In this document: one piece after another, positions 25,546-63,740 of the stretch | How positions within the stretch are numbered: the stretch's first letter is position 1 | How the letters are laid out: each line of letters begins with the position of its first letter | NCBI RefSeq assembly: GCF_016097555.1 | Contig: NC_054702.1 | Location: 69,630,695 to 69,694,694, forward strand | From: Gigantopelta aegis | Lineage: Eukaryota > Mollusca > Gastropoda > Neomphalida > Peltospiridae | DNA length: 64,000 nt | Reading direction: 5' to 3' | Made by a program: the position numbers and the translations under genes | Notes under the pieces: model-generated | What the model saw: only the letters and a program-made list of their open reading frames with translations | What the model was told of the DNA's origin: nothing | The model's database searches: none

Positions 25546-27521
25546 TCTTCAAAAGAAGAAACGCAAAACCACATTGTCGTAACATTTGGAGAATTGATTT
25601 AATTATTGAATGGTGAGTCCGATAATTACCAAATGTTGCAGGATTGTTCACAATTCACTCTAGTCCATTGTGAGTAAGTGATAGGACACACCACCAAGGT
25701 CAAGGTCATCTGGAGTCAATACCGGGTGTGGCCTCCGCGTGTGTTGACAACTGCCTGGCACCGCCTGCCCATTGAAGCAACCAGAGTACGGATGACGTCC
25801 CGGGGGATGGTGGCCCACTCGGCCTGCAAGGCTGCTGCCAGCTCGGGCAGGGTCTGGGGCTGTGGTTGTCGCTGTCGGAGGCGTCGGTCCAACTCGTCCC
25901 ATAGATGCTCAATTGGGTTCAAATCCGGTGATATCGATGGCCAAGGAAGGACATTAATGTTGTTGTTCTGTAGGAAAGCCGTTGTGAGACGTGCTGTGTG
26001 AGGCCTGGCGTTGTCATGTTGGAACACTGCGTTGGCGTTGGCCATAACTGGAACGATGTGTGGCCGGAGGATCTGGTCAATGTAGCCCTGTGCATTCAGG
26101 TTGCCCTGCACGTGGACCAGGTCAGTTCTGCCAGTGTGTGAGATGGCTGCCCACACCATGACACTACCCCCGCCGAATCTGTCCACTTCCTGCACGCAGT
26201 TTGCCGCATAACGTTCACCACGACGCCTATACACGCGACATCTTCCATCATGACGTCGGAGCAGAAATCGGGACTCGTCACTGAACCACACCTGTCTCCA
26301 TCGCAGTTGAGGCCATTGTCGATGAATCTGGCACCACTGCAGTCGGAGTCGACGGTGTTGTGGTGTTAAGATGACACCTCGAACTGGACGTCTGGCACGA
26401 ATTCCTACCTCACGTAGGCGGTTCCGTACGGTCTGGTCGGATATCCTGCGCAAACCTGGTATTGCTGCGGCTGTGGAGGTGGCAGTAGTCAATCGTTCCC
26501 GAAGGTGGCGTACCCGGATGTAGCGGTCCTGCCCGGGGGTAGTGACCCGTGGTCGACCGGATCTAGGGAGGTCACGTGTTGATCCATGTTGCTGGTAACG
26601 GTCCCACAGTCTGGAGATGGTGCTTGGGGACACATGGAATGCCCTGGCAACGGCCGTTCTGGATTCGCCTGCGTCTAGTCGGCCGATGGCATTGTTTCTC
26701 TACGGTTCACTGAGACGTGGCATGTCCTGGATTGTCAACTGTCGGCCAGATACAGAGGCCAGGCAAGCGAACACCCTGCACTTTTATACTGTCGGTGTTC
26801 ATGTTGCACGTGTAGACAACGCACGTGCAGTGGTGACATGGTTTGCACGTGGCTGCGTTTTTGCGAATATTCACATTTTGGAACTTTATTGTACAGTAGC
26901 TGCGTTTTATCGAATGTAACCGTGGGAATGTGTTTGGGACATGCAATGACCTTATATTCACAAAGCATGAACCGGCAGGAAACATAAAATCGGAGTTATA
27001 ACCCATTTGTACCCTTTTGCGTTTCTTTTTTTGAAGAGTATATATTTATATATATAGATATATACACACATACACACAGTCAAATCTGTCATAAGCGGTC
27101 ACACAAGGGAGTAGATAAAAGTGGCCGCTTAAGTCTGATTACAGGTTGCCACGTATAGTGTCTTCAAAACATTTGTTGTTCTTGTTTTACCGTCTGTACT
27201 GCTAATTAACGGTTGTAACTGGAATGTATTAAATTAACCGTTCTTCTGAAGGTGTGAAGATCGGTTATTTGCTGCACATTGTCGCTGTTGTTAAAATATC
27301 TCTTTTATAGAATATACGAGTATAGTAAACATTTACTGTGGCCGCTTAATACAGGTATTGTAGCGATTTGGGATCCGATTTAGGTGGCCGCTGGCCGCGT
27401 TAGACAGGTGACCGCTTATTACAGGTACATTTACATTATAAATCGTTTGGGAGGGGAAAAAGTGGTCGCTTAAGACAGGTTTGAATATATAAATATATAT
27501 ATATATATAAACATGCGCTTA

Positions 27522-32500: not shown

Positions 32501-34275
32501 CGATATGGAAAAAACTCCTATTATTACGCTTACGGATTCTATGTTAAATGTGATTTGTGATTAATAAATACTTAAATATAGATGCTTAACATCACGATTC
32601 CAACAATCGATACTTATATGTTAATATAATTATTTTATATTAAATAGAATGGAATTGCTGAATCCTATTTGGTATTTGTGGAATCTGTCAAAGTGTAATT
32701 ACAAGCCGTCTTCGTCGGTTTCCGTAACCTCCGCACCGAGCATCGATCGGAACATCTCGCCACAATCTATTGCGCTCCAACTTGCGAGGATTTCCGATTC
32801 AATGACAGAAACTAAAGGCTGGTCCCAAACGCAGGTTACGCAGACTAGTAGAGGCGGTTACCAGTCCAGCCTGTAATAACTTAAAAGAAAAGAAAGAAAT
32901 GCTTTGTGCTTCTATTTATTACTGCATGGAAAGTAAACACTATTAAAATTCCATGTTTAGTGTTACAATTCAGAAATATCGAACATTTTGCGGTGTTTAA
33001 GACAAATTCCACGGCCTAAAATTATGAATTCTGCACGTGTTCTGCACGAAAAGTGATTTTCCGCGGACGAACAACTATTCTGCACGATGGTGCAAATTCT
33101 GCAAATCGCGGAATTCAGAAGGGACTGAAATTTATGTCCAAATGTCCGTCTAGCTCTCTTACAGACTACTCGAGGCGAGACATAGCCCAGTGGTAAAGCC
33201 CTAGTTTGATGCGCTGTCGGTCTAGGATCGATCCATGTCGGTGGGTCCATTCGGCTATTTATCTTTCCAGCTAATGCACCACGGCTGGTATATCAAAGAC
33301 CGTGGTATGTGCTCTCTTGTCTGTGGGATGGTGCATATAAAAGATCCGTTACTACTAATGGACAAATATAGCGGAATTACCAAATTTTAATGTTTGAAAC
33401 CCAATAGTCGATTAATAAATCAATGTGCTCTAGTGGTGTCGTTAAATAAAACTATTTTTTTCCTATGTTTCTTATACTGGATTTGCTGAGATGTTGTTAT
33501 AAAACCCTTTACATTCCTAACTTTAACTGATTGATTGATTAACTGATTGATTTTTTGATTAAGTGATTGCTTGATTAACTGATTAATTTATTGATTAAGT
33601 GATTATTCGATTAACTAATTGATTGCTTGATTAAGTGATTGTTGCTTGATTAAGTGATTGATTGATTAACTGATTGATTTATTAATTAAGTTATTGCTTG
33701 ATTAAATGATTGATTTATTAAGTTACTGCTTGATTAAGTGATTGATTTATTGATTAACTGATTGATTTATTGATTAAATGATTGATTGATTAACTGATTA
33801 ATTTATTGAGCAAGCTGTATGCTTAACTGATTGATTTATTGATTGATTAAGTGATTGCTTGATTAAGTGATTGATTAAGTGATTGATTAACTGATTGATT
33901 TATTACGTTATTGCTTAATTAAATGACTGTTTAACTGATTAACCGATTGTATTAATTGCTTAACTAAGTGATTGGTTAACTGATTAACTGAGTAAGTGAT
34001 TGATTGATTAAGCGATTGCTTGATTAAGTGCTTGATTTATTGATTAACTGATTTATTGATTAACTGATTGATTGATTGATTAAGTTATTGATTAACTGAA
34101 TGATTTATTGGTTTTAGATGACAGCCACTCGTCCATTGCCAGAGATCTTCGTTTGAAGAAGTCTGTAGCCCTGTCGTATATCATGAAGAGAAAGACAGCG
34201 TTCGGGACGCAGGGAATCACGTGCGAGTGTTGCTACAACAGGTGCACGTTTGTCGAGTTGGCACAATACTGCTGA
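19989..34275 (+). CDS. Insulin-like preprohormone 1 (join 19989-20208, 34118-34275)
   Basis: A 125-residue secreted hormone precursor of the insulin superfamily; such peptides act extracellularly through insulin-type receptor tyrosine kinases. Seen: residues 1-24 form a signal peptide (hydrophobic [11 protein letters not shown]); the B chain has Cys 30, 45 and 57 with [13 protein letters not shown] (C-x11-C as in insulin B7-B19); GRKRR at 61-65 is a prohormone convertase site, and the preceding Gly could allow amidation; a short C peptide follows; MKRK at 96-99 precedes the A chain with CECCYNRC and final C125 (CCx3Cx8C). The extra Cys 30 and Cys 109 match the fourth disulphide of molluscan insulin-related peptides. 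The intron is phase 1 and lies in the C peptide, as in the family and in gene 2. Exons and stop are clean, so it looks functional. Weaponised insulins exist in cone snails, but nothing here indicates that use. Confidence 0.93.
20222..20318. repeat. (TG)n-like microsatellite
   Basis: TGTGTGTGCG, GCGCGCGCAC and GTCTG variants just after the exon 2 donor. Confidence 0.85.
20319..20551 (+). mobile_element. SINE family A, 3'-truncated
   Basis: Head GGCGGGACGTAGCCCAGTGG to ATGACCAAATG. Confidence 0.85.
20604..20682 (-). mobile_element. SINE family A, head only
   Basis: GGCCCACCGATGGGTATCG to CTTTACCACTGGGCTATGCC. Confidence 0.8.
20683..21340. other. Intronic, no feature recognised
   Basis: AT-rich, with a T run at 21203-21216. 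Nothing is supported. Confidence 0.4.
21343..21488 (-). mobile_element. SINE A head next to a single 40-bp unit
   Basis: GAAATAGCCCAATGGGCCC to CTGGGCTACATCCCGTCCC, then TTCACATTAAAAACATATTG, the same junction as at 17990-18020. The two loci therefore share a segment longer than the SINE. Confidence 0.75.
21540..22070. repeat. Degenerate direct repeats (GGCCATATTGG type)
   Basis: AAAATCTAAGC...AGATAGAAC, GACCTATGAAAC or GACCTGTAAAAC, and GTAGGTxATATGTTxGCCATA recur with roughly 150-320 bp spacing. Non-coding. Confidence 0.5.
22277..22380. mobile_element. MITE with GGGGCCTAATTCAC ends, copy 1
   Basis: Left AGGCCCAATTCACAAAG and right TTTAGTGAATTAGGCCC are inverted repeats. The core AGACAACAAAGCATCCT is shared with 49559-49679. 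Confidence 0.75.
22746..22979 (-). mobile_element. SINE family B, tail-truncated
   Basis: GGCTCGTAGTCATCAGAGG to CAACCGACTGAGCTAAATCC. Confidence 0.85.
23040..23412 (+). mobile_element. SINE family D, full length
   Basis: Head GGCCTCGGTGGCGTCGTGG and GGGTTCGGATCCCAGTCG (box B); body with CCATAACTGGTTCAACAAAG; tail GTCGTTAAATAAAACTAAC. Confidence 0.9.
23434..23580 (-). mobile_element. SINE family B, 3' half
   Basis: TTGTTTTGTTGAACGACACC to GGTATCTTTTATA; cut where another SINE begins. Confidence 0.8.
23587..23868 (-). mobile_element. SINE family A, near full length
   Basis: GTTTTGCTTCACGATACCAC to CTTTACCACTAGGCTCCGTC. Confidence 0.85.
24108..24350 (+). mobile_element. SINE C/D, head-truncated
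   Basis: CTCGCTCCAGTCAGTGCACC to GTCGTTAAATAAAACATTTCC. Confidence 0.85.
24361..24410. repeat. Poly-T tract
   Basis: About 29 consecutive T bases with flanking T-rich sequence. Confidence 0.9.
24410..24780. repeat. Degenerate tandem repeat, about 100-120 bp, 3-4 units
   Basis: TGTCGTATGTTTAC, GTGCGAATAACAAATTAACC and GCGAAGTCTTACATG recur in order. The middle two units are nearly identical and the outer ones diverged. Confidence 0.75.
24958..25262. repeat. Interspersed repeat, copy 2 (pair with 8895-9162)
   Basis: Shares CCCGAATCTGGATAACAAC, GGTTGCAAATGAATCACTA and GCTCCAGCACTGGGG with copy 1. Confidence 0.75.
25486..25544. repeat. (TA)n microsatellite, target of a Tc1 insertion
   Basis: About 29 TA units; the Tc1 element begins immediately after. 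Confidence 0.9.
25545..27038 (-). mobile_element. Tc1-family transposon, near intact
   Basis: A 1.49-kb element with inverted ends CTCTTCAAAAGAAGAAACGC and, at the right, GCGTTTCTTTTTTTGAAGAG, flanked on both sides by TA as expected for Tc1/mariner. It encodes one transposase on the minus strand. The left TA is the end of a (TA)n microsatellite and TATATTTATA continues on the right, so it inserted inside the microsatellite. It sits in intron 2 of insulin gene 1, in antisense orientation to that gene. Confidence 0.9.
25716..26723 (-). pseudogene. Tc1 transposase, one nonsense codon
   Basis: A DDE transposase that cuts and pastes its element at TA sites. The likely start is ATG 26723-26721 (MPRLSEP), followed by TAG at 26702-26700 as codon 8. 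The frame then stays open to 25716: helix-turn-helix region with [12 protein letters not shown] and GRPRVTT, then catalytic motifs [20 protein letters not shown] and [14 protein letters not shown]. The second Asp and the Glu are 34 residues apart (DD34E, Tc1 type). The C terminus RGGHTRY is typical. All catalytic residues are kept and only one stop is seen, so the insertion is young and probably inactive, unless a downstream start or readthrough is used. Confidence 0.9.
27085..27485. repeat. Interspersed GTGGCCGCTTA repeat cluster
   Basis: At least five variants of (G)TGGCCGCTTAA...ACAGGT occur at about 27092, 27121, 27341, 27384, 27408 and 27461, spaced irregularly. It is not a simple tandem repeat and not coding. 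Confidence 0.65.
27511..27625. repeat. Palindrome: (TA)n inside ACATGCGCTTAG arms
   Basis: Left arm ACATGCGCTTAGTATATA and right arm TATATACTAAGCGCATGT are exact inverted repeats. Between them lie about 40 TA units, themselves self-complementary. Confidence 0.9.
27640..28370. other. Intronic, no feature recognised
   Basis: AT-rich; a fragment CCAATAGCCGATATATTTTT with AGTGTCGTTAAACG near 27800-27845 is probably a SINE tail relic. Confidence 0.4.
28378..28450 (+). mobile_element. SINE family F fragment
   Basis: TTTAACGACACCCCAGCACG to GGGTGTCAAGCTATGGCAAA. Confidence 0.6.
28799..29417. mobile_element. Fold-back element T with a SINE inserted
   Basis: Left end ATGCTAGGATAAGACTG and right end AATCTGACACTAGCAT form inverted termini. 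The interior also has ACTGTTACGACGAA against TTAGTCGTAACAGTTGG. The element is split by the SINE at 28834-29215. Related copies are at 30124-30330, 53810-53950 and 58908-59146. Confidence 0.75.
28834..29215 (-). mobile_element. SINE family D, full length with 13-bp target duplication
   Basis: 382 bp flanked by perfect direct repeats CTGTTACGACGAA (28821-28833 and 29216-29228). The head (GGCCTCGGTGGCGTCGTG) is at the right and the tail (TTTAAATAAAACAT, reversed) at the left. Direct repeats of this length are what target-primed reverse transcription leaves, so the element boundaries are certain. Confidence 0.95.
29430..29532. repeat. (CA)n microsatellite
   Basis: CAAACAAACAAAC followed by about 40 CA units. 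Confidence 0.95.
29540..30123. other. Intronic, no feature recognised
   Basis: AT-rich, no exon or element supported. Confidence 0.4.
30124..30330. mobile_element. Fold-back element T, intact copy
   Basis: Inverted ends TAATGCTAGTATAAGGC and ATACCTAGCATTA bound 207 bp. Internal inverted segments carry GCCAACTGTCACGGCGAA and AAGTCGTGACAGCAG. Non-coding MITE. Confidence 0.8.
30430..30992 (-). mobile_element. SINE family B split by a SINE family A
   Basis: B body 30430-30570 (AGAGGAAACCCGCTACATTT to TTATTGGAACGG) and B head 30898-30992 (GAGCTGGTTCGATCCTGTG to CCGACTGAGATAAATCCCG) are separated by an A element in the opposite direction, so A inserted into B. Confidence 0.8.
30572..30891 (+). 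mobile_element. SINE family A, full length, nested
   Basis: GGGCGGGACATAGCCCAGTGG to GTCATTAAACGCAAAACAC and TTTAACTTTA. Confidence 0.9.
31201..31216. repeat. Poly-C tract
   Basis: About 15 C bases. Confidence 0.9.
31440..32450. repeat. Repeat G, long copy 1
   Basis: Starts TTTTTACATGCTCATATACC and includes GTTGCATCCCGTCAAGAAAA, CCTAGATTGACAGTC and GTAGAGACTAAACGCGAAC. It aligns block by block with 39183-40130. No complete protein is recognised on either strand. The (ATC)n tail of the other copy suggests a non-LTR element transcribed on the minus strand; class unproven. Confidence 0.7.
33170..33450 (+). mobile_element. SINE family A, body-deleted
   Basis: GAGACATAGCCCAGTGGTAA to GTGGTGTCGTTAAATAAAAC; part of the GCGGGTTTCC block is missing. 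Confidence 0.85.
33526..34110. repeat. Degenerate (TGAT/TTGA)n repeat abutting insulin exon 3
   Basis: About 580 bp of GATTGATTAACTGATT, GATTAAGTGATTGCTTG and similar variants, all T/A/G-rich on the plus strand. It runs to 7 bases before the exon 3 acceptor AG. It contains many ATTAACTGAT motifs that resemble splice branch points. Confidence 0.9.
34118..34275 (+). CDS. Insulin gene 1, exon 3 (C peptide end, A chain)
   Basis: The acceptor is TTGGTTTTAG (AG 34116-34117). Joined in phase 1 to exon 2, it encodes [20 protein letters not shown], a MKRK cleavage site, then the A chain with CECCYNRC and final Cys, stop TGA 34273-34275. AATAAA signals follow at 34438 and 34442, so the 3' untranslated part is about 180-200 bp. 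Confidence 0.93.
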
Positions 34276-51412: not shown

Positions 51413-51962
51413 TTTACTGAACTGAACTGAACTGAACTGAACTGAATTGTCATGTTGTGTCGACAAAAGACTGGGTGAACTGAACTGAACTGAATTGTCA
51501 TGTTGTGTCGACAAAAGACTGGGTGAACTGAACTGAACTGAATTGTCATGTTGTGTCGACAAAAGACTGGGTGAACTGAACTGAACTGAACTGAACTGAA
51601 TTGTCATGTTGTGTCGACAAAAGACTGGGTGAACTGAACTGAACTGAATTGTCATGTTGTGTCGACAAAAGACTGGGTGAACTGAACTGAACTGAACTGA
51701 ACTGAATTGTCATGTTGTGTCGACAAAAGACTGGGTGAACTGAACTGAACTGAACTGAACTGAATTGTCATGTTGTGTCGACAAAAGACTGGGTGAACTG
51801 AACTGAAATGAACTGAACTGAATTGTCATGTTGTGTCGACAAAAGACTGGGCGAACTGAACTGAACTGAACTGAATTGTCATGTTGTGTCGACAAAAGAC
51901 TGGGTGAACTGAACTGAACTGAATTGTCATGTTGTGTCGACAAAAGACTGGGTGAACTGAAA
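51413..51962. repeat. Minisatellite of about 48-58 bp, 10 units
   Basis: Each unit has a variable number of ACTGA pentamers followed by ATTGTCATGTTGTGTCGAC and AAAAGACTGGGTG. The pentamer number varies from about 2 to 5, which explains the length variation. A diverged trace (ACTGAACTGAATTGTCA) is at 52363. Confidence 0.95.
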
Positions 51963-56079: not shown

Positions 56080-56231
56080 TTAAGGACAGTACTCTATGAG
56101 TTCCTGTAATGAGCACTGGTTAAAACAGCACTCGCAGGTTGCGGTGGCCCCGCTTCGTTTCTCGAGATATTCCATGGCGGTTTTCTTTTCCAAAATTATT
56201 CTTTTCAGTCTGCTTATTGCGGTCAATGGAT
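56080..56231 (-). CDS. Insulin gene 2, A-chain exon
   Basis: The acceptor is TTATTTATTTGCAG (AG 56233-56232 on the minus strand). The exon encodes PLTAISRLKRIILEKK, the EKR site, the A chain and stop TAA 56082-56080. The two bases before the first full codon agree with a phase-1 intron. Confidence 0.92.
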
Positions 56232-56235
56232 CTGC

Positions 56236-56266
<31 letters not shown>

Positions 56267-56287
56267 AATAATAATACGAAATACAAC

Positions 56288-56336
<49 letters not shown>

Positions 56337-59300
56337 CAACATACTACTACTACTAATAAATACAATATAATAATAATAATTTAAAAAAAATTAAAAATAA
56401 TAATGGTTAATTGACTTTAAAATAATCAAATAGAAGTCTTTCCTAAAAAAAAAACCCGAGACAACCTTCCCCATAAAAAAATAACAAAACAAACACACAC
56501 GCACTCACACACACACACACTCACACACACACGCACACACACACGCGCGCGCACGCACGCACGCACACACACACACACACACGCCACCATCACAGCAACA
56601 ACAACTATAATTGTAAATATTATATTGTAGTGATTTAAACGGGGTTTACTTTCATACACATTGCACTGAAACTTCGTGCTTTGCATTCACATCCACGTCT
56701 GGTTGTGTTATGTACAGCCCTGTTTATAGGAAAGTGTAGAATAGTACACCGTTAGATGTCATATATTTTACATCGAGTTGTTTGAAAACGCATCTAATAA
56801 GCAAACGCGTCTTGGTGACGTTTTAAATCAAACACCTGTACGATAAATGGTATCTGACTAATATCATTCTAATTTTTTAGGCATCCCCAAATGAAAAAGA
56901 AAAAAGGCTAAACATTTTAAAAATACAACTACATGTATTTTATAGCACATTAAACAAACGCCTCAGAGCAATCAGTTTCATTTGTGATAATTTCATTGAC
57001 GTCCGGGTCATTATTGTGGAGCGGCAAGTCAGATGTATTCAAAGCAAACTCCCACACGTATGCGAAACATAGAGGTTATTACCCTCGTATTTCGGTATCG
57101 TCAATATCATATGTTAGGAATACATTATTTTTATTCCTAATATATGATATTGACGATACCGAAACACACGAGGGTAATAATCTGTTTATCATATAATCTC
57201 AAACTTAATACACCGTGTTTTTATAAACTGTGTACTCAACTTTAATTTCAGTTCGCCATTACTCGATATTCAAATAATAGCGTATAAATTCGTGACTTTG
57301 AATCTTTTTGAATGGAAACGAACATTTGGTAATTTTGACATATAGTCTCAAGAGAGGAAATCCGCCCCATTTTTCCATTAGTAGCAAGGGATCTGTTATA
57401 TGCATCATTCCACAGACAGGATAGCACATACCACGGCCTTTAATATTAATATACAAGTCGTAGTGCACTGGCTAGAACGAGATATAGCCCAATGGGCCCA
57501 CTGACGGGGATCGATCCCAAACCGACCGCGCATCAAGCGAGCGCTTTACCACTGGGCTACATCCCGCCCACGATAATTATGAATGTAGAGTTCAGCCAGA
57601 CCGAGCAGGAAAACGTCCGCTAGACTGGTTTATACGCTGGACGTTAAACCAAATGGTCATGTTGAGAACCAATCAAATACTTCGCGAACATTAGTTAAAC
57701 GTTTGCTCCTGAACTTGGGACTAGTGTGTCGTCGTAGTACGTTTGCTTACATATCAATAAAGGTAGTGCCATGATCTGATAAATTTACATCTAATGTGCA
57801 AAGTTATCAAATGCTGAAAGTATATGATATGAAAAATATCACATACTGTTATTACACTGGATACGCTATCAATTATATGATAAAACAGAAATATCACATA
57901 GTATTGTCTCCAACGGGTGTCTAAGAAGTATAAGGTAATCCTTTCCTGCAGAACGATAATTAGTTTTACTAAGGGGCGAAAATGATTTATTTTCACTTAC
58001 TTTCTACATTAAGAACAATATTTATACCATGTCACACCAAACAGCCATACTGAAAATGAGCGACTTCATATTATTACTAAACTTTCTACTATAATTGCTG
58101 TAAAAGGACATCATCTAATAACTAATTACAATCTGACCATGCAACATTAATTTGACAAATACAGATATAAGAAGCGAACAAGCGGATATATTACTGGAAT
58201 AAGATCTTGAACCAGACGTGCGTGAATAAATAATGTATTCTTTCCGGTGATTAGCGAAACCTGAACTAAGATGCAACGCCCACTGGAAATACAATTTGTT
58301 TTCGTATTGCAGTTTATTGATATCTGTACATGTGCATTGTGATGTACGAATTGCAATGTTTTTGCTGAATTTGTGAAAAATGAAAACAATTGGTTGTTAT
58401 AAGAATATTTTCATTAATTGTTAAATTGTTGCGTTGAAAATATACGCCTGCACGGCCGACTTAAAGGCCAATTTATCGAAGTTACTGACTCTGTTTTTAT
58501 GGTCTGATCATAGCGATTATTTTTGTCTTTTTACTTCATTGTGTCTTTCATGAATGTGATTCTTTTGTAGCTCTCTACACTATTTTTATTAATAATTTTA
58601 GAATTTTAAATGGATGTTGGTCATCATATATCTTGATTTTAACGCTCAAAAGCCAATGTTGTTTTGTTTAGTTGTTTTTGTGGGGTGCCGTTAAATAGTC
58701 ATTTATCGTCTTCAGATTAGCATAACATGTATTTTGAGTTACTACAAACACCGGGCAACCATTCATCGTCATCTAATTAGCATAATATGTAATTTGAGTT
58801 ACTACAAACACCGGGCAACCATTCATCGTCATCTAATTAGCATAATATGTATTTTGAGTTACAACAAACACCGGGCAACAACTGATAATTTACGCATAAC
58901 TGAACAGTAATGCTAGAATCAGACTACCAACTATCACGACGAAGTTGGCGAACTCGCCGATTTCTCAACTTCTAGCACTGTACAGTTGCTAGTCTTAGCA
59001 CTCTTGCAACTCGATTCTCGTCATATACAACTCCTACAGCCGATTAGTTGTTAATCTGAGCGCACCGGTCGTAAGTCGAGAATTGGGCAAATTACAACGC
59101 AACTGTCGAGTTGGCCAGCACCGTCGAGACAGTTGATGGTAGTACTAAACCAAATAACTTCCGGCTGGGTCAAAGTTCGAGGTGCACTTTTGACAGAGCA
59201 GTTAATACCACAAGTCCTGTGATTTGTGATAAATGTGAGTGTGCTGGTTGTAAAAACATAAATTACTTTGATCTGGGCAAAACATGTATGCAATTATATT

Positions 59301-60483
59301 TCATCTAGTACCACTGTGTTAAGTAGACTTGAGCTTGAAACATGTATGGGGTACCTATAAAAAATGTAACATAATTTTGTGAGGAACTAGAGTAGTCATA
59401 GACGCCACCCGTTATATCTGAAATAAGCAGCATGACCCCCAATTTTGTTTCTGATTCACTTTAAGGGTAAGTGGTGATAGTATTTATATATATGGTGTAT
59501 ATATCGATTTTCACGCTGCAGTTAGGAGGTTTAGCCACATATATTACTATTGTAGTCTATGGGATATGATTTTGTGATATACACTCTGACAGCTCGTGAC
59601 AAGTGAACATATTTCACTCGTCACATAAATTTGATAATAACTGGTAACTCGTTAATTATTCTCAAAATATGTCTCAAAACCTATATACTTTTTTGTATCC
59701 TCTTGTTTGAAGGAAGGAATGTTTTATTTGACAACGCACTCAACATATTATTTACGGCTATAATGACACAGAAAACCCACTGTTGCCGCTCCACGGGCTA
59801 CTCGTTTCGATTAGCAGAAAGAGATCTTTTATATGCACTATCCCACAGACGGAATAGGACATAGCATTGTCTTTGTTATGCTAGGGGCGGGAGGTAGCCC
59901 AGTGGTAAAGCGCACGCCTGATGCGCTCTCGGTCTAGGATTAACCTCTATCGGTGGGTCCATTGGGCTATTCCTCGTTCCAACCAGTACACCACGACTGA
60001 TATATCAAAGGCCGCGGTATGTGCTATCCAGTCTGTGGGATGGTGCATATAAAAGATCCCTTGCTACTAATTGAAAAATGTAGCGAGTTTCCTCTCTATG
60101 ACTGTGTCAACATGACCATATGTTTGACATCCAATAGACGATGATTAATAAATCAATGTGCCCTAGAGGTGTCGTTAACCAAAGCAGACGTGTTTGTTAT
60201 TATACCAATATTTGGACCCTGGCTGCAACCAAAACTCTCCCCCCCCCTCCCCCCAATTGGCCCTAGCAAAGTTGGACTGAACTTGTTGTTTCGTACCGCT
60301 TCGTATTAGTCGTCTGTGACATAAACTGTCCAGGGTGTTGGTGAAGGAGTCGCCACAGAGTCCGTTGACGTGCACCCGTCTTAACGACATCGTGTTGCAG
60401 ACTCGGGGACTTCCACCTGACCTGACCATCAAGGGGAACACGCCGAGAAGAAGCACGACAACAGACACCACTGATCCTTTCAT
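56080..60483 (-). CDS. Insulin-like preprohormone 2 (join 60483-60297, 56231-56080)
   Basis: A 112-residue secreted insulin-superfamily precursor. Seen: signal peptide about 1-22 (VVSVVVLLLGVFPLMV); B chain with Cys 29, 43 and 55, including CGDSFTNTLDSLC (C-x11-C); RR at 57-58 right after it; short C peptide with LKR at 71-73; EKR at 86-88 before the A chain, which contains CECCFNQC (Cys 95, 97, 98, 102) and final C111 followed by Pro. The extra Cys 29 and Cys 95 would form the fourth disulphide of molluscan insulin-related peptides. The intron is phase 1, as in gene 1. The chosen donor is GCG|GTACGA (GT 60296-60295), the only upstream site giving the right phase; ACAA|GTTCAG nearby has the wrong phase. 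An in-frame TAA precedes the ATG, so the start is firm. The signalling role is inferred from the family. Confidence 0.9.
56235..56400. repeat. (AAATA)/(AAT)n microsatellite abutting the A-chain acceptor
   Basis: AAAT tetramers then AAT triplets and ACT triplets. On the minus strand they read (TTTA)n and (ATT)n right up to TTTGCAG, supplying the T-rich tract of the splice site. Confidence 0.95.
56490..56584. repeat. (CA)n/(CG)n microsatellite
   Basis: CACACACGCAC, CGCGCGCGCAC units in the intron of insulin gene 2. Confidence 0.95.
56590..57075. other. Intronic (gene 2), no feature recognised
   Basis: No element supported. Confidence 0.4.
57076..57180. repeat. 105-bp hairpin
   Basis: Arms of about 46 bp: TTATTACCCTCGT...TTTCGGTATCGTCAATATCA, and the complementary TGATATTGACGATACCGAAA...ACGAGGGTAATAA. 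The arms differ by a 2-base bulge and one or two mismatches, around a loop of about 10 bp. It lies in the intron of insulin gene 2. It could be a MITE or a hairpin RNA precursor. Confidence 0.85.
57318..57571 (-). mobile_element. SINE family A, tail-truncated
   Basis: AACATTTGGTAATTTTGAC to CTTTACCACTGGGCTACATC and CCGCCC. Confidence 0.85.
57590..57714. mobile_element. Short MITE, copy 2 (GTTCAGCCA ends)
   Basis: GTTCAGCCAGACCGAGCAGG to CTCCTGAAC; 125 bp, same family as 15779-15902 with a decayed right end. Confidence 0.7.
57715..58700. other. Intronic (gene 2), no feature recognised
   Basis: AT-rich, no exon or element supported. Confidence 0.4.
58702..58880. repeat. 60-bp tandem repeat, three copies
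   Basis: Units with GAGTTACTACAAACACCGGG and CATCTAATTAGCATAATATG. Two are nearly identical, the first is diverged. Confidence 0.9.
58908..59146. mobile_element. Fold-back element T, copy
   Basis: TAATGCTAGAATCAGACTAC left; ACAGTTGATGGTAGTACTA right; AACTATCACGACGAAGTTGG inside. Confidence 0.75.
59150..59705. other. Intronic (gene 2), no feature recognised
   Basis: No supported feature. Confidence 0.4.
59709..59880 (-). mobile_element. SINE C/D tail half
   Basis: GGAAGGAATGTTTTATTTGA to CACTATCCCACAGACGG; head missing. Confidence 0.8.
59884..60182 (+). mobile_element. SINE family A, near full length, beside insulin 2 exon
   Basis: GGGGCGGGAGGTAGCCCAGTG to GTCGTTAACCAAAGCAGACG. TTTGTTAT occurs just before it (59871-59878) and just after it (60191-60198), a likely target duplication. 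It sits about 110 bp inside the intron from the B-chain exon donor, antisense to the gene. Confidence 0.85.
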
Positions 60484-60494
60484 TATATGTTAAC
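60297..60494 (-). CDS. Insulin gene 2, exon with signal peptide and B chain
   Basis: The acceptor is TTTGTGTTGCAG (AG 60496-60495). The exon begins GTTAACATATAATG, so the start codon is only 11 bases from the splice site. It ends at 60297 before donor GTACGA. The acceptor and ATG context are the same sequence that is repeated in the adjoining 77-bp array. Confidence 0.9.
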
Positions 60495-62359
60495 CTGCAA
60501 CACAAACATACAGTCAAAACTAGATTAAAGCTTCAAGCCAAATCATTATATGTTAGCCTGCAACACAAACATACAGTCAAAACTAGATTAAAGTAAACTT
60601 GTTAAAGCTTCAAGCCAAATCATTATATGTTAGCCTGCAACACAAACATACAGTCAAAACTAGATTAAAGTTAACTTGTTAAAGCTTCAAGCCAAATCAT
60701 TATATGTTAGCCTGCAACACAAACATACAGTCAAAACTAGATTAAAGTTAACTTGTTAAAGCTTCAAGCCAAATCATTATATGTTAGCCTGCAACACAAA
60801 CATACAGTCAAAACTAGATTAAAGTAAACTTGTTAAAGCTTCAAGCCAAATCATTATATGTTAGCCTGCAACACAAACATACAGTCAAAACTAGATTAAA
60901 GTAAACTTGTTAAAGCTTCAAGCCAAGTCATTATATATTAGCCTGCAACACAAACATACAGTCAAAACTAGATTAAAGTAAACTTGTTAAAGCTTCAAGC
61001 CAAATCATTATATGTTAGCCTGCAACACAAACATACAGTCAAAACTAGATTAAAGTAAACTTGTTAAAGCTTCAAGCCAAATCATTATATGTTAGCCTGC
61101 AACACAAACATACAGTCAAAACTAGATTAAAGTAAACTTGTTAAAGCTTCAAACCAAATCATTATATGTTAGCCTGCAACACAAACATACAGTCAAAACT
61201 AGATTAAAGTAAACTTGTTAAAGCTTCAAACCAAATCATTATATGTTAGCCTGCAACACAAACATACAGTCAAAACTAGATTAAAGTAAACTTGTTAAAG
61301 CTTCAAGCCAAGTCATTATATGTTAGCCTGCAACACAAACATACAGTAAAAACTAGATTAAAGTAAACTTGTTAAAGCTTCAAGCCAAGTCATTATATGT
61401 TAGCCTGCAACACAAACATACAGTAAAAACTAGATTAAAGTTAACTTGTTAAAGCTTCAAGCCAAATCATTATATGTTAGCCTGCAACACAAACATACAG
61501 TCAACACTAGATTAAAGTAAACTTGTTAAAGCTTCAAGCCAAATCATTATATGTTAGCCTGCAACACAAACATACAGTCAAAACTAGATTAAAGTAAACT
61601 TGTTAAAGCTTCAAGCCAAATCATTATATGTTAGCCTGCAACACAAACATACAGTCAAAACTAGATTAAAGTAAACTTGTTAAAGCTTCAAGCCAAGTCA
61701 TTATATATTAGCCTGCAACACAAACATACAGTCAAAACTAGATTAAAGTAAACTTGTTAAAGCTTCAAGCCAAATCATTATATGTTAGCCTGCAACACAA
61801 ACATACAGTCAAAACTAGATTAAAGTAAACTTGTTAAAGCTTCAAGCCAAGTCATTATATGTTAGCCTGCAACACAAACATACAGTCAAAACTAGATTAA
61901 AGTAAACTTGTTAAAGCTTCAAGCCAAATCATTATATGTTAGCCTGCAACACAAACATACAGTCAAAACTAGATTAAAGTAAACTTGTTAAAGCTTCAAG
62001 CCAAATCATTATATGTTAGCCTGCAACACAAACATACAGTCAAAACTAGATTAAAGTAAACTTGTTAAAGCTTCAAACCAAATCATTATATGTTAGCCTG
62101 CAACACAAACATACAGTCAAAACTAGATTAACTTGTTAAAGCTTCAAGCCAAATCATTATATGTTAGCCTGCAACACAAACATACAGTCAAAACTAGATT
62201 AAAGTAAACTTGTTAAAGCTTCAAACCAAATCATTATATGTTAGCCTGCAACACAAACATACAGTCAAAACTAGATTAAAGTAAACTTGTTAAAGCTTCA
62301 AACCAAATCATTATATGTTAGCCTGCAACACAAACATACAGTCAAAACTAGATTAAAGC
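60481..62359 (-). repeat. 77-bp tandem array, about 24 copies, of insulin 2 acceptor/ATG region
   Basis: Units start CATTATATGTTAGCCTGCAA on the plus strand and end AAGCTTCAAGCCAAAT, spaced 77 bp with a few single-base variants and two shortened units (the first, and one near 62128). On the minus strand each unit reads TGTATGTTTGTGTTGCAG, then GCTAACATATAATG, i.e. splice acceptor plus start-codon context. An 11-codon ORF (MIWLEALTSLL) ending in TAA follows, or 9 codons in the GTTAAC variant units. The first unit contains the real exon start of insulin gene 2, with TTAACC in place of TTAGCC. Confidence 0.97.
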
Positions 62360-63178
62360 CGCACACCCTAGTTCCATCCAGCGAAAAATAAATTATAATT
62401 TGATTAATCTACAAACCTGTAACACACTTAGATCACGTTTTTATCAAATGGAGTGAAAAAGCAGGTTTTATATCGATAAATACCATGGGAATCCCCATGT
62501 CCCAATTACTTGAAATAATTTTGAAAGTTTGTATTCTGATGTCACCGGTAGATGTCGCTCGAAGCACAACAGTGCCTACGTCACGACAAAGTTCACAGAC
62601 TTGGGGTGCGTTCTTTTCACCTCTCCTGGACATGTTCCAAATGTTCTGTCCTGGTTGTATCCCCTCTCCAAATATCGTAGGACTTAGCAAATTTATTGGT
62701 TTTAAGGGTTTGTAACGTTTTGTATTAAGATACTTACTTGTCTGAACTTTGTTGTTACTGAAAATGTTCATGAACTGTGAAGAAAAATCTCACAAATGAA
62801 CAACAACAAATCGGATGTTGAAACTTGATTGCGCGAACCGTGCACGAGAAAACAAATCGAACCAAAATGATAACGGTCACGTGGTATACCAACGTCTGTG
62901 ACATTGAAATGGAAATATCCCGCCTAAAAATAGATTAGACTTTGTCTGCTCAACGATTTTTTCTCAAACGTGCGTCCGTTTTTCAGAAATACGAAAAATG
63001 CATTTTGTGGTATTACAAACACCAGGATTACCAGGATTACCAAAAAACACTTCAAGTGAATGGAAATGTATATTCTAAATAATAAACGGTACGTAAAGTG
63101 CAATTTTATTTGTGAAAAAATGGGTTTAATAGCGAAAAACAATGCCGTAATGGTTAACAACTAGCTGTAACTAGGGTG
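62360..63178. mobile_element. Insert between repeat arrays, with 12-bp inverted ends
   Basis: CACACCCTAGTT at 62362-62373 and AACTAGGGTGTG at about 63167-63178 are exact inverted repeats located where the arrays stop and resume. TTAAAG flanks both sides but is also part of the repeat. No transposase is recognised. It may be a non-autonomous DNA transposon inserted into the array. Confidence 0.5.
62738..62775 (-). other. Candidate upstream exon of insulin gene 2
   Basis: On the minus strand CAGACAA|GTAAGTATC is a near-perfect splice donor (GT 62737-62736). TTTTTCTTCACAG, an acceptor-like sequence, lies about 37 bases upstream, and a CACGTG motif is further up near 62880. If used, it splices over the 77-bp array to the B-chain exon. 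It is supported only by splice-site quality. Confidence 0.4.
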
Positions 63179-63184
63179 TGTCCG

Positions 63185-63740
63185 TTTAAAGTAAACTTAT
63201 TACAGCTTCAAGCCAAGACATTATATGTTAGCCTGCAAAACAAACATACAGTAAAAACTAGATTAAAGTAACCTTCCTACGTGCAAGAAATGTGTTAGTA
63301 AACTTGTTTAGGTTTCAAGCCCAGTCATTATATGTTATCCTGCAAAAGACAAAATAGTCAAAATTAAATTAAAGTAAATTCCGTTCGTGCATGAGATGTC
63401 AGTAAATCTGTTAAGGTTTCACGCCAAGACATTATATGTTAGACTGAAAAACAAACATTATATTTAAAAAAAGTTCATACATGCATAAAATATGTTAGTA
63501 AATCTGATAAAGTTTCAAGTCAAGTCGTTATATGTTAGCCTGCAAAACAAAAATACAGTCACAATTAAATTAAATTTTAAATTCCTTTCGTGAATGGAAT
63601 ATGTTAGTAAATATGATAAAGCTTCAAGTCAAATCGTTATATGTTAGCCTGCAAAATAAAAATAAAACCGAAATTTATTTTAACATGTAACGTGCATGAA
63701 ATAATATGTTAGTAAATCTGTTAAAACTTCAAGCTTCGTG
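63185..63740 (-). repeat. Diverged array of the same repeat, longer units
   Basis: About five copies of ATTATATGTTAGCCTGCAAA-like blocks at about 100-117-bp spacing. They contain the 77-bp motifs plus an extra segment of about 28 bp (ACGTGCAAGAAATGTGTTAG type) that is absent from the homogeneous array. The divergence shows it is older. Confidence 0.85.

Follow-up and report, generated by a model that had tools for sequence, protein, structure and literature searches.

The B-chain exon of an insulin-family gene in Gigantopelta aegis (gene 2) is preceded by a tandem array in which the acceptor and start-codon context of that exon recur in 24 units, most of them 77 bp long. The array lies in a 64,000-nt stretch of contig NC_054702.1 (the window), which contains two insulin-family genes in opposite orientation on a contig of 120.6 Mb in a genome of 1.149 Gb. 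We consider it likely that the array is a minisatellite confined to this locus and active until recently, which arose from the 3′ end of a leader intron by duplication with a breakpoint just beyond the start codon. It is probably tolerated, rather than being a control device shaped by selection.

The insulin gene and the array at its start codon

The B-chain exon of gene 2 begins at base 60494, with its ATG at 60482–60480 and a donor GT from 60296, and is separated from the A-chain exon by an intron of 4065 nt (Table 1). The spliced product is an open frame of 112 amino acids that starts with a hydrophobic stretch and has cysteines like those of an A chain. It passes the PF00049 profile with 24.5 bits (cut-off 23, residues 42–111), in agreement with the assignment to the insulin family made in an earlier, sequence-only reading of this DNA. 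Judged by its sequence, gene 2 is an intact insulin-family (insulin/IGF/relaxin) gene. The B exon on its own hit no family in the domain search, and comparison of the product with solved structures gave weak IGF matches (best E 0.22). In the profile search, the A exon of gene 1 also matched PF00049 above the cut-off. Genome-wide there were 15 PF00049 matches, five above the cut-off and the others weaker, and 14 of the 15 lie on the window's contig (loci L014–L027). Rfam (gathering threshold) and ARAGORN gave no matches in the window.

The single relative found in the protein collection was an ENA protein of 107 amino acids, P0001, encoded on a contig of 395,893 bp. It is identical to the gene 2 product at 37 of 48 positions in the aligned part, and the start Met is common to both. 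Compared with the translation of 60482–60297, the first 21 residues of P0001 are identical and 31 of the next 42 are; the start is better conserved than the hormone part, on small numbers. Scans of genome and viral contig collections did not find the locus encoding P0001.

Table 1 Coordinates of gene 2 and the array features in the window.
Feature	Position	Strand	Basis or remark
Gene 2 A-chain exon, including stop codon	56080..56231	-	Joined frame; PF00049
Gene 2 B-chain exon	60297..60494	-	198 nt; frame and splice positions
Exon-proximal shortened copy	60483..60543	-	63-bp unit plus first bases of the ATG
AG of the putative authentic 3′ splice site, gene 2 B exon	60495..60496	-	Sequence
Young array of 77-bp units (24.0 copies)	60517..62358	-	TRF; acceptor, ATG and short ORF per unit
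829-bp element flanked by TTAA tetranucleotides, its inverted ends imperfect	62357..63185	.	Inside one 77-bp unit
Five older diverged copies	63219..63734	-	AG at the acceptor position in each

TRF reported the 77-bp array with 97% matches and a score of 3500, the highest among 72 TRF rows. It has the structure of a minisatellite, with head-to-tail units of 10–100 bp in many copies, and is a candidate VNTR. On the gene strand between 60300 and 64000, the acceptor-plus-ATG anchor, allowing at most 4 mismatches in 20, occurred 30 times: the exon's own copy (60499–60480), 24 in the array (to 62327) and five older ones (63218–63653). The TRF copy number and the 24 array anchors both bear out the earlier count of about 24 units; the five older copies, previously unreported, carry the array on to about 63.73 kb.

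On the gene strand, an array unit contains TTGAC or TTTAC, picked by eye as the candidate branch point, together with a pyrimidine tract, TTGCAG, GCTAACATATAATG and a short upstream open reading frame (uORF). Homology between unit and exon ends one base beyond the exon's ATG, and the 21-nt 3′ splice sites of the 24 units and the B exon are identical (25 of 25), confirming that the array multiplies the acceptor and start context of this exon. Some details of the sequence-only reading required adjustment. The motifs it placed in every unit are present in most, with TAATAT replacing TAACAT in 2 of 24 units and the exon copy having GTTAACATATAATG where the array units have GCTAACATATAATG. Unit length is not entirely uniform: one array unit measures 71 bp, and the unit closest to the exon 63 bp. 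The uORFs starting from the 24 array ATGs have 11 codons in 19 units, 9 codons in four and 8 codons in the unit adjoining the exon, so the description of 11 or 9 codons holds for 23 of 24. The 22 full 77-mers comprise eight distinct sequences with a mean pairwise difference of 1.8%, and a run of three unit types is found again 10 units away within the array, an indirect hint that copy number may vary.

Older copies and the history of the array

Four of the five older copies can be delimited, at 96–109 bp; the fifth (o1) lacks an upstream anchor and its outer end was set by hand. The old copies are 72–81% alike among themselves. Identity to the young consensus is 98% for the exon copy (one difference over 63 aligned bases), 91% for the nearest old copy and 71–86% for the remaining old copies, such that divergence rises with distance from the exon. 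About 30 bp of the old copies are missing from the 77-bp form, and two of the five have ACG instead of ATG. Four of the old copies contain TTTACTAAC and the other TTTACTGAC, with a branch-point-like TACTAAC that has been lost from the 77-bp form.

Between the young array and the older copies, the 829-bp element splits one 77-bp unit. Without the element this unit measures exactly 77 bp (910 − 829 − 4 = 77), and the 77-bp form therefore predates the insertion. Of the array components, the element alone is dispersed, and it is very abundant: there were 3219 first-look candidates, and the best 40 scored, which include the window's own copy, all showed 96–100% identity. Five copies were given for a check of the flanks and four were matched, the window's included; three of these four have TTAA on both sides. 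The element is MITE-like. Elsewhere in the window, a 327-residue open frame (25716–26699, minus strand) matches DDE_3 and Tc3-type transposase domains.

Genome matches of the two unit types were all local (14 of 14 and 8 of 8, in a search that omits very common words), which points to a locally born minisatellite. A dispersed repeat or satellite is rejected for both, as this search, very common words aside, gave no matches elsewhere in the 1.149-Gb genome. The sequence thus shows older units of 96–109 bp, a 77-bp form towards the exon, one 77-bp unit split by the element, near-homogeneous units beside the exon and an exon copy that hardly differs from the array.

Acceptor sites, leader and alternative explanations

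The putative gene 2 acceptor lies 11 nt upstream of the ATG. Among 5160 AG sites of the same strand over 100 kb it falls at the 98.3rd percentile, scored with generic weights and no trained model. Since the 21-nt sites are identical and each site is scored alone, one score applies to all 25, and unit-to-unit identity is independent of the weights. The acceptor-strength check that had been proposed thus left the array units standing as potential sites, equal to the real one. With the same generic weights, the acceptors of the old copies fell at percentiles 99.9, 99.8, 92.6, 99.9 and 99.7, and the putative A-exon acceptor of gene 1 only at the 75th. Each unit also contains ACT/GTATGT, whose GT has a percentile rank of 90.2 among GT sites, compared with 97.9 for the gene 2 B-exon donor (generic weights); cassette exons made from units are possible but weak candidates.

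Use of successive acceptors would yield first coding exons of 198, 261, 338, 415, 492 nt and longer, joined at 60494, 60557, 60634, 60711 and on, the leader growing in 77-nt steps with one short uORF per step. The context of the upstream ATGs is almost identical to that of the real start, and the nearest uORF ends 37 nt upstream of the real ATG. Such a short spacing from uORF stop to start codon hinders reinitiation.

The sequence-only reading placed the array in the first intron or 5′ leader. Five other B-chain-like exons were taken for comparison and four were read, L026 not being located. The distance from an acceptor-like site to the ATG is 36 nt in gene 1, 19 nt in L025, 0 nt in L024 and 2 nt in L027; the PF00049 matches of L024 to L027 are weak and under the cut-off. 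With four of five having such a site 0–36 nt before the ATG, a leader-intron position for the array fits the paralogues. Neither the 3 kb read beyond the array nor the long ORFs listed over 64–100 kb yielded a clear promoter, first exon or donor, so we infer the leader intron of gene 2 rather than observe it, and regard it as plausible. The array would then occupy intron 1. Most splicing would use the exon's own acceptor or those closest to it, and leaky use of the nearest array copies is possible, in which case minority mRNAs with uORF-bearing leaders would be poorly translated.

Repeats beside acceptors are not rare in the window, as two further insulin acceptors are nearly touched by tandem repeats. 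One array (33523–34109) ends 8 nt short of the putative A exon of gene 1 (first base 34118), and AAAT/AAT repeats (56236–56404) end 4 nt short of the gene 2 A exon (first base 56231); both supply part of the pyrimidine tracts of those acceptors. Arrays with a period of at least 15 also occur upstream of the other four B exons that were located (6 kb covered), with none closer than 1.3 kb to the ATG. Among the arrays of the window and the located paralogues, a unit containing an acceptor and a start codon was seen at gene 2 alone. The window also holds a minisatellite at 51476–51961, with nine copies of a 58-bp unit containing inner TGAAC repeats.

The old copies were analysed for signs of selection. 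Over 88 ungapped columns, conservation is 0.905 in the acceptor-to-ATG block and 0.739 elsewhere. Column permutation with all rows reached the fixed-block value in 173 of 20,000 trials and the best-window value in 3397; these counts became 832 and 11,223 without o1, and 22 and 575 without o3. The permutation signal is weak and varies with the rows included. Neutral simulation at divergences of 0.133, 0.10 and 0.07 reached the observed mean acceptor score in 2035, 4566 and 8433 of 20,000 runs, and kept YAG in all five copies in 3218, 5078 and 7820. Acceptor strength in the old copies fits neutral decay. The conservation of the acceptor-to-ATG block is less readily accounted for by neutral drift; it is a weak hint, and selection on the old acceptors is unsupported.

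These results bear on whether the array is a functional ladder, whose acceptors compete with the real one, adding about 77 nt and one uORF per step so that copy number sets output. The 24 sites identical to the real acceptor, the similarity of the uATG context to that of the real start and the acceptor-to-ATG block as the most conserved part of the old copies all speak for it, and human INS offers a precedent, leader-intron splicing changing translation there (PMC4081105). Against it, the old acceptors are kept no better than under neutral decay (2035 of 20,000 even at divergence 0.133), the best-window conservation is not significant (3397 of 20,000), ACG replaces ATG in two of five old copies, and the array reaches the acceptor in none of the four other paralogues examined. 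We therefore think a functional ladder unlikely. Its extension to a copy-number rheostat, in which a fast-mutating array of 0 to n near-identical uORFs varies between individuals and its length sets hormone output, seems to us a little less likely still. A neutral, locally born minisatellite accounts for the evidence. The interpretation offered in the sequence-only reading is partly supported: the anatomy of a ladder is present, its use hypothetical.

Other alternatives concern the position, origin or reality of the array. If the promoter lay within or downstream of it, the array would be part of a promoter or leader and its acceptor motifs would be relics. The failure to find a first exon or donor in the upstream regions covered favours this. 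A 98.3rd-percentile acceptor placed 11 nt from the ATG, with acceptor-like sites close to the ATG in the paralogues too, speaks against it, and we hold it to be about as doubtful as the functional ladder. A pre-existing minisatellite could instead have given the gene its present acceptor and start context, in keeping with the near match of the exon copy to the young units and the stronger acceptor scores of the old copies. That origin is quite improbable, since the units match nowhere else in the genome, the paralogues possess their own acceptors close to the ATG and the same start Met is retained in P0001. Mis-sizing is possible in long near-identical arrays, yet the eight distinct sequences among 22 full 77-mers, the divergence of the outer copies and the presence of the element within one unit make an assembly artefact in unit number or order very improbable. 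A tolerated minisatellite seeded from the leader-intron 3′ end is the reading that we retain.

Significance and comparison with known systems

If the array acceptors are used, gene 2 would provide a naturally occurring titration experiment on 3′ splice-site choice, with 25 identical sites facing one downstream donor and each upstream site marked by a uORF, ahead of a hormone gene. It would tell whether the spliceosome favours proximal or first-made acceptors and reveal how a fast-changing repeat may alter insulin dosage. If they are unused, an identical site sequence would be insufficient for use.

Full-text literature searches, as far as their results describe the papers, turned up no array with units that bear both the acceptor and the start codon of their gene, a result that leaves absence unproven. 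The tandem repeat of the TYMS leader is, like the gene 2 array, a copy-number repeat adjoining a start codon, but is exonic, has few copies and is not known to contain acceptors. Units of the human INS 5′ VNTR are short and are not known to carry an acceptor or start codon. That VNTR is likewise a minisatellite adjoining an insulin gene (PMC10904573); it sits in the control region, whereas the gene 2 array would lie in intron 1. The VNTRs of ABCA7 (PMC5954066) and TERT (VNTR6-1; PMC11830802) are also intronic tandem arrays linked to splicing, set apart in that the descriptions available do not give their units as copies of the gene's acceptor and start. A working array would act much as the human INS leader intron does: weaker splicing there leads to a longer leader and curtailed translation, and proinsulin expression is inhibited by a small uORF (PMC4081105). 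Human INS intron 1 involves one acceptor and intron retention, in contrast to the many duplicated acceptors of gene 2, whose effect is hypothetical. What INS intron 1 (rs689) would share with the arrangement proposed here is an insulin gene, a weakly spliced leader intron and longer leaders that bear uORFs and curtail translation (PMC4081105).
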